A DNA stretch of 64,000 nt from Phycisphaerae bacterium (GTDB taxonomy: Bacteria; Planctomycetota; Phycisphaerae; UBA1845), in assembly GCA_013360585.1 (NCBI GenBank), contig JABWBH010000008.1, positions 1 to 64,000 on the forward strand, written 5' to 3'. The notes beneath the pieces are model-generated. The model ran no database searches. It was not told the DNA's origin and worked only from the letters and a program-made list of their open reading frames with translations. Within the stretch, counting starts at the first letter, position 1, and the number at the start of each line of letters is the position of its first letter. Below, one piece after another: positions 1-60,900 of the stretch. The position numbers and the translations under genes are program-made.

Positions 1-158
1 GCGATCTCCTCACAGATCAGGAGCCACGTGGAGAGGTCTCCTTCCTCTGCGGAGTCGATCAGCGACAACAGGGATTCCGGGGTCAGGTTCCTGGTGAGTT
101 GGGATCGCACCTCGTCCAGTTGAGCGTTGAAGGTCGCGTAAGACACCGCCGCTACCAT
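1..158 (-). CDS. Phage portal protein, Mu gp29-like (DUF935), N-terminal part
   Basis: The reading frame starts at an ATG (156-158) behind a strong Shine-Dalgarno (CAGGAGGTTTCA) and runs off the left edge. It overlaps the end of the terminase gene by a few bases, the usual terminase-portal order of Mu-like and related phages. The visible 52 residues end in an acidic helix containing SLLSLIDSAEEGDLSTW and then LLICEEI. This resembles the start of Mu gp29-type portal proteins, where an 'A.EGD...LEL.EE.E' segment precedes the portal core. The function, a dodecameric DNA entry ring of the procapsid, is inferred from family and position. It is truncated by the window edge. Confidence 0.6.
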   Translation of the reverse strand, partial: MVAAVSYATFNAQLDEVRSQLTRNLTPESLLSLIDSAEEGDLSTWLLICEEI

Positions 159-1459
159 TGAAACCTCCTGCCTTGCGACACCGGGAACGTTTCGACCGCC
201 TCCGGACCCGTCTCGTACTCCAGCCCTGTATACAGGGCGAGGGCGATGGACGAAAATCGGTCCGCGTGGCTGCCGCCCTCTTCGGCGGCCGCAAAGCGAA
301 CGTTGCCGGAGGGCGTAGTCATTCTCGCCACGGAGTGGAGGTCCGCGTGCAACGTCTCGTCGTCCGGGATCGCTATCCTTCTGTCGCTGAACACAGACTG
401 CATCATTCCAGCCATCACAGACTTCACCCCCGCGGTGATCGTAACCGGCCGAACCTTCCACCGCCCATGCATCATAACCAACTCCTCGGCCAGTTGCATG
501 CCTAGTCCGGTAGCGTCGATGCAGGCGGCCACGACCCCATTGCGGCGGATGATACGACCTATCGCCTCCCGCTGAGCCCCGAAGGGCTCGCCGCGTAGCT
601 CTTCGGCTCCCGCAAAAAAGAACATGCGCCCGACGCGCCTCAGAGCGGTGATGACCGTCAGGTTCCGAGCGCGACCCACGTCGATTCCGACGTAGATGTC
701 CCCGGGCGGAAACGACTTCGGCATCGCGTAAGTGAGCGAACCGTCCACGCACGCGGTGATCGTCGCGTAGTCCAGCAGCGCGTACTGCTCATCCACGAAC
801 TCGCAGAGGTAGGACTGTCGGAACGTCTGCTCGTCCAGGCATCCGCGACGAAGCGCGTCAACGTCGTGGCAGCATCCGCCCATGTTGGCCTGATGAATGT
901 CGCACCTATGCAGCGACCACGGCGACGAGGCCCTCTCCGCATCCTGGATCAGGGAGTAGAACATTCCCGCGCGCCCCATCGGGGTTGAGACGACGCTGAT
1001 CCTCCGGGATGCGTCTGCGGATATCGTCGGGTACACCGCCTCCCATATCGCTTTGGGGTCGTGGTGTCGCGCGAACTCGTCGAGAACGACGTTCCCGCTG
1101 AATCCGGCGACGGTGTCCGGGTTGCCGGGCACCGCCATGATCCTCCCGCCTCCGGAGAACTCCAGCGTGTCCTGGTTGTCGACGACGATGCGCATCGCGC
1201 TCGATGCCCCTACCGAGGCCGCTCGGGCAAGCTGGCGCGCACGGCGAACCACTTCAACGCTCTGCCGCTGGGAGCGCGAACAGATCAGCGTTAGCGTCCC
1301 CTGGGTCATGGCATCACGCACAGCCTCCATCGCGACGACGGTCGTCCAGCCGATCTGACGCGCCTTCAGTGCGATGCGGAATCTGCTGCGGTCAGCAAGC
1401 CAACGCCGTTGGTGTGCGAACCATTTTGGACGGGCTGACTCGATTTCAGAGACTCCACG
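152..1459 (-). CDS. Phage terminase large subunit (Mu gp28-like), start codon missing
   Basis: This encodes the ATPase-nuclease motor that packages phage DNA. The only ATG lies at 1330 (MEAVRDAMTQG), but the conserved N-terminal motif lies upstream in the same frame: QRRWLADRSRF, then ALKARQIGWTTVVA, the Mu gp28-type ATP-binding region. The frame is open up to a TAA at 1460-1462 and has no ATG, GTG or TTG before 1330. The C-terminal half has the RNase H-like nuclease signature: YVGIDVGRARN, ACIDATGLG and a final HADRFSSIALALY. Two CRISPR spacers match this gene exactly (982-1011 and 891-920). The missing start suggests a frameshift, a rare start or a junction artefact. Family assignment is solid; gene integrity is not. 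Confidence 0.8.
   Translation of the reverse strand, partial: RGVSEIESARPKWFAHQRRWLADRSRFRIALKARQIGWTTVVAMEAVRDAMTQGTLTLICSRSQRQSVEVVRRARQLARAASVGASSAMRIVVDNQDTLEFSGGGRIMAVPGNPDTVAGFSGNVVLDEFARHHDPKAIWEAVYPTISADASRRISVVSTPMGRAGMFYSLIQDAERASSPWSLHRCDIHQANMGGCCHDVDALRRGCLDEQTFRQSYLCEFVDEQYALLDYATITACVDGSLTYAMPKSFPPGDIYVGIDVGRARNLTVITALRRVGRMFFFAGAEELRGEPFGAQREAIGRIIRRNGVVAACIDATGLGMQLAEELVMMHGRWKVRPVTITAGVKSVMAGMMQSVFSDRRIAIPDDETLHADLHSVARMTTPSGNVRFAAAEEGGSHADRFSSIALALYTGLEYETGPEAVETFPVSQGRRFQW
891..920 (-). other. Protospacer matching CRISPR spacer 2486-2515
   Basis: The minus-strand sequence of this 30-nt stretch inside the terminase gene is identical, 30 of 30, to the spacer at 2486-2515. 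The guide would have the same sense as the terminase mRNA. The 3' flank of the protospacer, where a Cas9 PAM would lie, reads GGCCAACATG. Confidence 0.95.
982..1011 (-). other. Protospacer matching CRISPR spacer 2288-2317
   Basis: The minus-strand sequence is identical, 30 of 30, to the spacer at 2288-2317. The 3' flank reads CGATGGGGCG. Both spacers therefore target the same strand of one gene, 61 bp apart. Confidence 0.95.
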
Positions 1460-1527
1460 TTATCCACGATGATCTCGATTCCGAGATTCCGGAACACGCG
1501 AAGGCGATCCTCCTCCGTGACCTCCAC
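1366..1527 (-). CDS. Fragment of the phage gene upstream of terminase
   Basis: A frame different from the terminase frame reads VEVTEEDRLRVFRNLGIEII followed by VDNVESL and then less protein-like sequence up to a TGA at 1366-1368. The first 25 residues look like genuine protein. They run right up to the boundary with the first CRISPR repeat at 1529/1530. It may be the end of the gene that precedes terminase, or the true terminase N-terminus separated by a frameshift near 1450. The function is not recognised. A GTG at 1525-1527 could serve as a start but has no clear ribosome binding site. Confidence 0.3.
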   Translation of the reverse strand: MEVTEEDRLRVFRNLGIEIIVDNVESLKSSQPVQNGSHTNGVGLLTAADSASH

Positions 1528-1537
1528 TCGCTGTGGC

Positions 1538-1565
1538 TTGCCGGGAAGCGTCGCTCAGATACACT
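1538..1565 (+). promoter_or_regulatory. Repeat-embedded promoter candidate (first of 18 copies)
   Basis: Within each repeat, TTGCCG (repeat bases 9-14) and TACACT (bases 31-36) are separated by 16 bp and each match 4 of 6 bases of the -35 and -10 consensus. Transcription would start inside the following spacer. Repeat-internal promoters are established for Neisseria meningitidis and Campylobacter type II-C arrays, where the repeat end also forms the -10 box. Activity here is inferred. Confidence 0.4.
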
Positions 1566-2091
1566 TCCAGTCCAACGGAGAGGGCGAGCCTAAAGCTGTG
1601 GCTTGCCGGGAAGCGTCGCTCAGATACACTAAGGTTGCGCACGAAGACCCGGTATCCGAGCTGTGGCTTGCCGGGAAGCGTCGCTCAGATACACTGTCGA
1701 TAGCGGAGAACAGCTTCCCGACGTCGCTGTGGCTTGCCGGGAAGCGTCGCTCAGATACACTGGCCCAAAAAGAAACCCAACAAACTTGCAGGCTGTGGCT
1801 TGCCGGGAAGCGTCGCTCAGATACACTCATACGTCGCGTACATGCGCGTGGCCGGAGGCTGTGGCTTGCCGGGAAGCGTCGCTCAGATACACTGAGTTTT
1901 CGCCGTTCGCGCCACTGACCGAGGCTGTGGCTTGCCGGGAAGCGTCGCTCAGATACACTCAGCTCTTCCAGCGCCGCGAGTCCCGTGGCGCTGTGGCTTG
2001 CCGGGAAGCGTCGCTCAGATACACTCCCTCATCAAGTTTATCTCCTGGGCCGAGAGCTGTGGCTTGCCGGGAAGCGTCGCTCAGATACACT

Positions 2092-2186
2092 CAGCTGAAG
2101 CGTCAGGTACCAGACTTTTTGCTGTGGCTTGCCGGGAAGCGTCGCTCAGATACACTCCAGCTGAAGCGTCAGGTACCAGACTTTTT
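2092..2186 (+). repeat. Duplicate spacer pair differing by one base in length
   Basis: The spacers at 2092-2120 (29 nt) and 2157-2186 (30 nt) share the same 29 nt; the second has one extra C at its 5' end. They end at the same base next to the repeat, that is, the PAM-proximal side. Confidence 0.95.
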
Positions 2187-2682
2187 GCTGTGGCTTGCCG
2201 GGAAGCGTCGCTCAGATACACTGCCCCCGGATAGGGAAAACGCGCCACCGTGCTGTGGCTTGCCGGGAAGCGTCGCTCAGATACACTCATCCCGGAGGAT
2301 CAGCGTCGTCTCAACCCGCTGTGGCTTGCCGGGAAGCGTCGCTCAGATACACTTCGCGCCGGGAATCGTACTGACCTGCACGAGCTGTGGCTTGCCGGGA
2401 AGCGTCGCTCAGATACACTGACCTCATTGAGACGGCGCGCACGATGCGGGCTGTGGCTTGCCGGGAAGCGTCGCTCAGATACACTGTGGTCGCTGCATAG
2501 GTGCGACATTCATCAGCTGTGGCTTGCCGGGAAGCGTCGCTCAGATACACTACGCCGTCCGCTCGCCTCACGTTCTCGACTGCTGTGGCTTGCCGGGAAG
2601 CGTCGCTCAGATACACTGTAGTCGCAGGGAAACACTCCGATTCTTGGCTGTGGCTTGCCGGGAAGCGTCGCTCAGATACACT

Positions 2683-2731
2683 AGTCGTCGCGTAACCGGC
2701 TGTCAGGCAAGGGGTTAGGGCGGAAACAGCG
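2683..2731. other. Spacer-cas2 gap, possible leader side
   Basis: These 49 nt separate the last repeat from the cas2 stop codon. I see no repeat remnant and no clear promoter. If the leader is on this side it must be very short or overlap the end of cas2. Confidence 0.4.
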
Positions 2732-3121
2732 TCAGAAAAGCATGAGCTGGCGGGGGGGATCCTCCGCCGGCTTTCGCTTTTTTCCAATGTAATTCTCCAT
2801 TTTTCCGAACTGGCGGTCGGTGACAGCGAGGAGCCGGACCTGTCCCTCATCGGGCAGGCCGTCGCGGACAAGCTGCCGATGCACGGCGGCGGACTCCTCG
2901 CTTGCGCAATACCGCGCGTAGACCGAGTATTGCATCATACTGAATCCGTCGTTGAGAAGCAATTTTCGGAACTGCGCGTAGCGCCTCCGATCGGCGGGGG
3001 TCTTCACGGGCAGATCGAACATCGCAAAAAGCCACACGGGGCGGTATCCGGATAAGGCGACCTGGGTCGAGGGCACGCGAGCGATCCATCCTTTTAGACG
3101 TTGCACGGTTCCCGCTGCCAC
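2732..3121 (-). CDS. cas2: CRISPR-associated endonuclease Cas2 (type II-C)
   Basis: Cas2 bridges two Cas1 dimers in the spacer-integration complex. The ferredoxin-like core is recognisable: GYRPVWLFAMFDLPV (first strand with the conserved Asp), FRKLLLNDGFSMMQYSVYAR, then VRLLAVTDRQFGKM. The ending with a basic KKRKP stretch and a hydrophobic QLMLF is common in type II Cas2. The longest frame (129 aa, GTG start) has an extension of about 25 residues before the core. An internal GTG at 3076 gives 114 aa, closer to the family length, and may be the real start. It is separated from cas1 by 221 bp, unlike the overlapping cas9-cas1 pair. Confidence 0.95.
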   Translation of the reverse strand: MAAGTVQRLKGWIARVPSTQVALSGYRPVWLFAMFDLPVKTPADRRRYAQFRKLLLNDGFSMMQYSVYARYCASEESAAVHRQLVRDGLPDEGQVRLLAVTDRQFGKMENYIGKKRKPAEDPPRQLMLF

Positions 3122-3342: not shown

Positions 3343-4371
3343 TCACGGGTGCGGTCCTGATGGGGCATCGCCCAGTTTCTTCGGATAATCGAGGGATTCA
3401 CTTTCCTTCGAGAGGCACTTGACCAGCGAAATGGCGGTGCGGGCGCAGAGGTCGAAGAGGGTGCGGACCTCGCCGTCGGCGAAATATCGGGCCAGGATCG
3501 TCTCCAGGAGGATCTGCTTGCCGATGCGGTCCAGCTCCGTGCCCCGGCCTGCGGCGACGTGCTCGACGACGGCGGCGTCGATCAGAGGGCGGAAAGGCTC
3601 CATCAGATCGTCGGCGAGACAGAAGGGATTCTCGCGGTGGTGGTGGTGCAGGCCGAGCGACGGGTGCAGCCCCGCGCCGCAGATCGCGCGGCCCATGACG
3701 GCGCGGAGGACGGCGTATCCGTAGTTGAGCAGACGGTTGGCGTCGGGGGCGTCAAAGCGACGATGAAAGCCGGGATCGTCGAAAAGCACGGGCCAGTAGC
3801 GGCGGGCGGCGACCGCCTCGCGGTTATCCGGGTCGCCGGAGCGGACGGCGCGGGCGAGTTCGGACAGGCCGTGGTCGCCGCCGCGAAGCTCCCTGAGAAG
3901 CTCACCCTGGGCGAGAATCTTGCGGCGGACGATCTGTTTCCAGAGCTGTTTCTTCAGCGGGAGCGGCGCGGAGGCTTGCGCGATGAGACGCTGGGACTGG
4001 AGGGTGTTGGCGTTGAGCGGAAGCATCATGCCGACGGGGAGGGAGCGGGAGTCGCAGACGATGAAGGCGGCGCCGGCGTTCATGAGTCCGGCGAGGACGG
4101 GCTGGGAGCATTGAACCTGGGGATGCGCGATGATGAGGGCGGCGACTTCGGAGAGGGGGGCGGAAACAGGGCGTGGCTCCTCCTCGGGATCGTGAGTCGA
4201 TGCATCGCTGGGTGGAGGCTCGCCGTCCGCCTGGCCCGCTCCCGGGGGGAGGGGGGAAGGCAAACCCGCTCCCTGACGGTCGCGGTACGGAAAACGCTCG
4301 ATGACGAGTTGGCGGTTGCGGACGCGCAGGTACGCGGCGGACTCGGCAAGGTCGATGATGCGCTCAGTCAT
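3343..4371 (-). CDS. cas1: CRISPR-associated integrase Cas1 (type II-C)
   Basis: Cas1 is the metal-dependent integrase of spacer acquisition. The N-terminal beta domain starts MTERIIDLAESAAYLRVRNR. The helical catalytic domain has REAVAARRYWPVLF with the first acidic ligand region, GLHPSLGLHHHHRENPFCLA with the conserved His, and DDLMEPFRPLID with the acidic residue. The start ATG overlaps the cas9 stop (ATGACTGA), so translation is probably coupled. At 342 aa it is about 40 residues longer than usual. The excess is a Pro/Gly/acidic insertion at about residues 28-70, between the first beta strands and PLSEVAALIIAHPQV. Part of the insertion is encoded by a dispersed repeat motif at 4267-4285. 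Confidence 0.97.
   Translation of the reverse strand: MTERIIDLAESAAYLRVRNRQLVIERFPYRDRQGAGLPSPLPPGAGQADGEPPPSDASTHDPEEEPRPVSAPLSEVAALIIAHPQVQCSQPVLAGLMNAGAAFIVCDSRSLPVGMMLPLNANTLQSQRLIAQASAPLPLKKQLWKQIVRRKILAQGELLRELRGGDHGLSELARAVRSGDPDNREAVAARRYWPVLFDDPGFHRRFDAPDANRLLNYGYAVLRAVMGRAICGAGLHPSLGLHHHHRENPFCLADDLMEPFRPLIDAAVVEHVAAGRGTELDRIGKQILLETILARYFADGEVRTLFDLCARTAISLVKCLSKESESLDYPKKLGDAPSGPHP
4267..4285. repeat. Dispersed repeat motif inside cas1
   Basis: CGCTCCCTGACGGTCGCGG at 4267-4285 differs by one base from the copy at 3208-3226, and a decayed copy lies at 3336-3354. Inside cas1 it is read in frame as RDRQGA and starts the non-conserved insertion. Confidence 0.75.
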
Positions 4372-7571: not shown

Positions 7572-7602
7572 ACACGAGGCTCTTTATCGTAAGGTTATCG
7601 TT

Positions 7603-7744
7603 AGTGTATCTGAGCGACGTTTTTCCGCAAGTCACAGTAAGCGGTCAAACGGCCGCGCACGGCAACGCTCCAGGTGAGCGCCCAGGGCGGACTCTCAGGG
7701 GTTAGCCCGCACCGCTCTCGCACCTTCGGGTCGGGAGCTTTTTT
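7603..7744 (+). ncRNA. tracrRNA
   Basis: The 5' part (7603-7638) is the anti-repeat. AGTGTATCTGAGCGACG is a perfect 17-nt complement of the repeat's 3' end, followed by a mismatched 7-nt internal loop and GCAAGTCACAG, which pairs with the repeat's 5' end with one G-U wobble. Next come TAAGCGGTC-AAAC-GGCCGC, a 6-bp hairpin, then GCACGGCAACGCTC. This closely follows the Neisseria tracrRNA layout (TAAGGCCGTC, then GCCGCAACGCTC). It ends in a strong terminator at 7714-7744. The RNA pairs with each crRNA, recruits RNase III and is bound by Cas9. Exact ends are estimated. Confidence 0.93.
7714..7744 (+). terminator. Intrinsic terminator of tracrRNA
   Basis: GCTCTCG at 7714-7720 pairs with CGGGAGC. 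Inside is an ACC-TTCG-GGT tetraloop stem, and six T residues follow. Confidence 0.9.
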
Positions 7745-7760
7745 CTTGCGCGGGGCGCCG

Positions 7761-59667: not shown

Positions 59668-60900
59668 ATGACACCTTCGCCCGCCGAACCCGTCTCTTCA
59701 CAAGTCCCGCGGTCGCGTCGCCGGCGCCGGGTCTTCAAACTCGCGGTCATCCTTGCAACCCTGGTTCTTGCGGATCAGTTGGCGGGAGTTCTGCTCATCC
59801 GGAACGGACGATTTCGAGGCAAGCCGGTCCCCCCTTACGAACTCGTCTTCAACGACGCCCAGCGCCGGCATGTGCGCGAAATGACCGAGCGCTGGGATTC
59901 ATACACCCGGTTTGATCCCGAACTTGGCTGGTCGATCCGTCCGGGCGGAATCTCCGATGACGGCCGCTACCGGGCCAACAACGCGGGATTTCGCGCCGAC
60001 CGGGATTACGACCTCGTACCGCCTCCGGGCGTGCTTCGCATCGCCGCGATGGGGGAGTCGTTCACTCACGGCGCAACCGGCAATGCCGACACGTGGTGCG
60101 CCTACTTGGAACGCTTGAACCCCGTGCTGGAAGCACTGAATTTCGGGGTTAACGGATACGGGCTTGATCAGGCGCTCCTGCGATACCGGCGCGACGCGGT
60201 GCCTTACCGGCCGCATACGGTGATCCTCGGTCTGATGGTGGAGAACCTCCTGCGCCACGTCTCCGTCTACCGACCTGCGTACCACCACGACACGATCTCC
60301 GCCGTGGTGAAGCCGCGATTTCGGATTGACGGCGCCGGCGGTCTCACGCTGATTCCCTGTCCCGCCGAAAGCATCGCCGCTTTGAAGTCGGACATCGAGT
60401 CCGGAGCGATCCTGAAAGCGCTGCGGACCACGGATTACTGGGTCATGCGGGCGCCGCTCGCTTACGAACGATCGCCGCTCTTTGCCTCCGGCGTGTTCCG
60501 GCTGATCTACGCGGTTCACGAGAACGCCGCGCGCTCCCCCCGCGAACACTATCTCGATCCCGAGGGCGAGCCTTACCGTGTCACCCTGGCGCTGGTCCGG
60601 GTCTTCAACGACGAAGCCCGCCGAAACGGCGCTCAGCGTGTCATCCTGCTGCTGATGCCGGACGAGGGAGCGCTCTTCGATCGCTGGGACGGCGTCGAAC
60701 CTTACTGGGAGGGGTTGTTGTCAGAGGCCCGCAACGCCGGCGTTGAAACGCTTGACGTCAGCCCTCGCCTTCTTGACGCAATGACCACCCTGGGCGCCGC
60801 CGCGTTGTTCTCGAAGAATCATTACACGCCCCTGGGCAACCGCCTGGTTGCGGAAGCACTCCTCCAGGTTCTCCACCGTGAGAACCCGGGCGCGCCCTGA
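59668..60900 (+). CDS. Membrane-anchored SGNH/GDSL hydrolase-like protein
   Basis: A 410-aa protein from ATG 59668 with one N-terminal membrane helix (VFKLAVILATLVLADQLAGV) after a basic stretch. SGNH blocks are recognisable: RIAAMGESFTHGATG (nucleophile Ser), LNFGVNGYGLDQALLRY (Gly/Asn block) and the C-terminal FSKNHYTPLGNRLVAEAL (His with a preceding Asn). Members act as acyl- or acetyl-esterases, often on surface polysaccharides. The substrate is not evident. The divergent neighbour encodes a secreted protease. Confidence 0.85.
   Translation: MTPSPAEPVSSQVPRSRRRRRVFKLAVILATLVLADQLAGVLLIRNGRFRGKPVPPYELVFNDAQRRHVREMTERWDSYTRFDPELGWSIRPGGISDDGRYRANNAGFRADRDYDLVPPPGVLRIAAMGESFTHGATGNADTWCAYLERLNPVLEALNFGVNGYGLDQALLRYRRDAVPYRPHTVILGLMVENLLRHVSVYRPAYHHDTISAVVKPRFRIDGAGGLTLIPCPAESIAALKSDIESGAILKALRTTDYWVMRAPLAYERSPLFASGVFRLIYAVHENAARSPREHYLDPEGEPYRVTLALVRVFNDEARRNGAQRVILLLMPDEGALFDRWDGVEPYWEGLLSEARNAGVETLDVSPRLLDAMTTLGAAALFSKNHYTPLGNRLVAEALLQVLHRENPGAP

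Follow-up and report, generated by a model that had tools for sequence, protein, structure and literature searches.

Chains of the NmeCas9 type, which we take to be the type II-C enzyme of Neisseria meningitidis, are among the best PDB matches of the Cas9 considered here, and the PAM of Nme1 is N4GATT. Mu-like phages insert by their ends and not in the terminase region, and in phages of the Mu/B3 type the genes for the small terminase, the large terminase and the portal follow one another (gp27-gp28-gp29). In II-C systems, new spacers enter the array at its 3' end (PMC12080349, PMC12638026), and a published comparison describes diverse PAMs among closely related II-C Cas9s (PMC9433092). CRISPR repeats have also been given as a cause of chimeric short-read contigs (PMC6617893). 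The exact 36-nt repeat of the array described below was scanned for in public bacterial and archaeal genomes and is present in three Phycisphaerae MAGs. The loci of G394 (taken as Bin_14R, JAJVHU010000038) and G393 (taken as SJ659, JADZBE010000034) share this repeat and the cas2-side leader with the locus under study; their Cas9s are 86% and 84% identical to its own, and their spacers differ.

We analysed a window of 64,000 nt from an uncultured Phycisphaerae bacterium whose genome assembly comprises 4.24 Mb in 84 contigs. The first base of the window is the first base of its contig (C10). The cas operon and the array lie near this end, with hflX and similar chromosomal-type genes further along the contig; coordinates are collected in the table. 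Besides the RuvC and HNH motifs, Cas9 has Pfam matches to HNH_4, RuvC_III and Cas9_a. The predicted tracrRNA lies upstream of cas9 (fold z=-1.9), and its anti-repeat (7602-7637), about 86% complementary to the repeat, sets the plus strand as the crRNA strand. Neither csn2 nor cas4 is present in the operon, and the gaps separating cas9, cas1, cas2 and the array are too small for another large gene. Judged by this gene content, the CRISPR-Cas9 locus is an ordinary one of type II-C.

Features of the locus and of the adjoining phage-like DNA, in window coordinates
Feature	Position	Strand	Basis or remark
Start of gene after terminase, probably Mu gp29-like portal	1-164	-	position and open frame; cut by contig end
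Terminase large subunit, Mu gp28 / B3 type	152-1444	-	Pfam Terminase_6N/6C, B23 likeness, alignment
Protospacer of spacer 15	891-920	-	30/30 identity; 3' flank GGCCAACA
Protospacer of spacer 12	982-1011	-	30/30 identity; 3' flank CGATGGGG
Open coding-like DNA upstream of terminase	1444-1529	-	unbroken to first repeat; frame 2 open, GC3 0.75
Putative 18th spacer, proposed array/phage join point	1500-1529	+	30 nt in exact spacer slot before first repeat
CRISPR array, type II-C	1530-2682	+	18 identical 36-nt repeats, 17 spacers of 29-30 nt
Spacer 12	2288-2317	+	equals terminase 982-1011
Spacer 15	2486-2515	+	equals terminase 891-920
Spacer 16	2552-2581	+	29 nt common to type I-E spacer on contig C38
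Leader, probable acquisition end	2683-2731		between array and cas2; conserved in G394, G393, G450
cas2	2732-3121	-	TIGR01573 E=9e-19; PADLOC Cas2_II
cas1, type II	3343-4371	-	TIGR03639 E=2e-69
cas9, 1065 aa	4364-7561	-	TIGR01865 E=3e-198; RuvC and HNH motifs
tracrRNA (predicted)	7602-7745	+	anti-repeat, stem-loops, terminator-like hairpin then T run

Several observations concern the spacers and repeats of this genome at large. The adjoining spacers 9 (2092-2120) and 10 (2157-2186) differ only in that one has an additional C at its 5' end, a likeness due either to a slipped second acquisition or to a duplication. A second run of the same II-C repeat (5 repeats, 2 of them variant, and 4 spacers) lies at 181-479 of C23, a 5.8-kb contig, near a putative clpX. 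It may be an orphan array or may belong to the broken main array; we considered joining C23 and C10 as one array, but the variant repeats of C23 would then sit at the end expected to be the newest, which makes such a join doubtful. The genome also holds a type I-E array (contig C38, 58300-60700; 38 copies of a 29-nt repeat, with cas1e and cas6e), in which the fifth spacer from the cas side (60359-60390) has 29 nt in common with II-C spacer 16, both read on the same strand. By the leader argument given below, spacer 16 is the second newest of the II-C array. A near-identical spacer is found near the leader end of each of two CRISPR types in one genome, and the II-C and I-E systems both appear to have taken up DNA from the same target not long ago.

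The DNA between the contig end and the array, 1.5 kb in all, resembles Mu/B3-like phages in its terminase and is distant from them in sequence. The product of the terminase gene matches Terminase_6N (E=2.5e-14) and Terminase_6C (E=5.8e-8). It is about 34% identical, over 98%, to the terminase large subunit of Alteromonadaceae phage B23 and about 30% identical to that of Pseudomonas phage B3 (30-34% over 93-98% for the two phages). As in B3 and B23, another gene follows the terminase; the 52-aa piece of it left by the contig end gave no match in a Pfam search. Upstream of the terminase, whose frame reaches about 1443, GC by codon position in one frame is 0.68, 0.21 and 0.75, and the 86 nt up to the first repeat are possibly the end of a small terminase gene. 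Their likeness to gp27 C-termini is weak, the best score being reached by 99 of 2000 shuffles in a restricted, borderline test; a first pairwise hint of small-terminase homology failed an HMM test. The terminase gene appears intact except for its start. In its minus-strand frame (1441-1465) no ATG, GTG or TTG follows the upstream stop, and an ATC stands behind GGAG where the ATG is expected; possible causes are decay of the start, use of a rare start codon or an error in the sequence. Other Mu-like genes occur elsewhere in the genome, namely a terminase (37% identical; C52, 28889-30193) and a piece of a Mu portal gene near a contig end (C4, 33820-35290). None of the CRISPR spacers tested had a match in the stretches of C52 and C4 examined.

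The first-pass annotation had claimed that two spacers are each identical over 30 nt to the minus strand of the terminase gene, and alignment bears this out. Spacers 12 and 15 are exact reverse complements of their protospacers, the match of spacer 15 running 1 base into the repeat (31 nt, 890-920), and exact matches of this kind are expected by chance at about 4e-14. For the remaining 15 spacers nothing above 23/30 was found in the window. Were a single 37-kb phage the source of most of the 17 spacers, two matches within 1.4 kb would have a probability of about 0.14, and the spacer positions thus fit a single phage. Since the crRNAs are read on the plus strand, the 3' protospacer flanks are CGATGGGG and GGCCAACA. 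They share a G at position 2 and purines at positions 5, 6 and 8, and the N4GATT of NmeCas9 is not read in either; two flanks do not settle the PAM. When spacers of the relatives were compared with genomes of the family for PAM inference, only weak matches and no added sites were obtained. Searches for the phage itself covered several collections. Spacers 9, 12, 15 and 16 and the putative spacer at 1500-1529 had no exact match in IMG/VR, concatenated spacers gave chance-level matches only against phage records, and among 114 genomes of the order the spacers matched their own genome and elsewhere only weakly. No DNA-level match of the phage fragment was found in a phage collection.

We then asked what the end of the array at 1530 represents. 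G394 and G393 share with the window the 49-nt stretch that separates the last repeat from cas2, together with the sequence continuing it; in G450 the conservation is less close. This conservation, together with the site of spacer acquisition in II-C systems, marks the cas2 side as the leader end, which leaves 1530 on the old side. A mutated extra repeat at the 5' end of the relatives' arrays agrees, like the conserved 3'-side leader, with acquisition at the 3' end. In G393, G450 and OFTM174, whose arrays have natural old ends, this mutated repeat precedes the first intact one by exactly 66 nt and keeps 16/18, 18/18 and 17/18 bases of its 3' half, respectively. At the same distance upstream of 1530 the window has neither a repeat nor a mutated terminal repeat (3/18 matches; of 20,000 random 18-mers from the window, 0.05% reach 12). 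Since the upstream repeat is missing here and present in three relatives, the end at 1530 is not a natural one; on this comparison of sequences it is an interior point on the old side of a truncated array. The G394 array is likewise cut short internally by a contig end, and the 5' flank of the G393 array, followed through its efp-like gene, showed no conserved synteny. In a further contig (JAJDDV010000171.1, 6700-6830) a mutated extra repeat, one 30-nt spacer and a single intact repeat are followed by apparently non-array DNA; this may likewise be a join located at a spacer boundary.

The phage-like DNA reaches 1529 and ends exactly where the first repeat starts, and 1500-1529 therefore fill a spacer slot. 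A random joint would fall on a repeat boundary at about 1 in 66 positions. We consider that the adjacency of phage and array is an assembly join through a third phage-matching spacer at 1500-1529, with a probability of roughly 0.8; both the spacer nature of these 30 nt and the in silico origin of the join are inferred. According to this explanation, the array would sit in a type II-C locus on the chromosome of the Phycisphaerae bacterium and would hold at least two spacers, and presumably a third at 1500-1529, from packaging genes of a Mu/B3-like phage that would have lived in the same community. At 1500-1529 the assembler would have followed the identical sequence into the phage genome instead of into the next repeat, so that in the cell the array would not have this terminal 1.5 kb of phage DNA beside it. 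In the own genome assembly, the phage piece matches only itself and the two spacers. Against an assembly join, an overlap of 30 nt is short for assemblers finishing at large k, the proof of phage coding as far as 1529 is weak, GC content is without a jump at the junction (phage and host could share composition), and an independent copy of the phage was not found in the searches made.

The next reading, to which we give rather long odds, is that the phage DNA is truly chromosomal, a prophage or part of one that either neighbours the array or has recombined with it via the shared 30-nt spacer. Survival of the cell would then depend on flanks that are not a valid PAM, on an anti-CRISPR or on a silent Cas9. 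The sequence is continuous across the junction and even in GC, the two perfect protospacers have flanks without an evident common PAM, and C4 and C52 carry further Mu-like genes, all of which would suit a resident phage. However, the junction lies exactly at a spacer boundary and at a contig end, no repeat stands at the expected upstream position, the terminase is intact but for its start, unlike an old remnant, and the insertion of Mu-like phages uses the phage ends and not the terminase region. The part of this reading in which phage DNA recombined with the array in a living, surviving cell through the 30 nt common to spacer and protospacer is more doubtful still; if true, it would have placed phage genes beside an array that targets them. 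That the array naturally ends at 1530, the phage-like bases being its true flank after a move beside a phage remnant, is very improbable, for although the cas loci of relatives stand in differing surroundings, so that the flank need not be conserved, 3/3 natural-ended relatives have the mutated extra repeat 66 nt upstream that the window does not have.

These results bear on what had been concluded from the adjacency. The first-pass annotation had left two readings side by side, that the locus had captured the phage it targets or that two DNA molecules had been joined; the latter is strongly favoured, given the junction at a spacer/repeat boundary and at a contig end, the missing repeat and a fragment unmatched elsewhere in the genome. 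The protospacers do lie on the same contig as the array, across a junction that bears the marks of an assembly join, and since joined molecules are strongly favoured, lethal self-targeting need not be invoked and the self-targeting reading is probably wrong. The further claim that the phage targeted by this Cas9 is identified stands at the level of a Mu/B3-like phage with a terminase about 34% identical to that of B23, and does not extend to an exact IMG/VR match for the five spacers scanned. Most likely, then, the spacer match names a phage met by the Cas9 and not a self-targeting cell. A join of this kind would otherwise pass for lethal self-targeting or for the capture of a phage, and where a metagenome contig passes from a CRISPR array into phage DNA and the change falls exactly on a spacer boundary, a crossing through the spacer should be suspected. 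Contigs that cross from array to phage at a spacer boundary could be mined for phage targets, and the present one provides a usable host-phage link by pairing a Phycisphaerae type II-C Cas9 with a Mu/B3-like phage that it targets.
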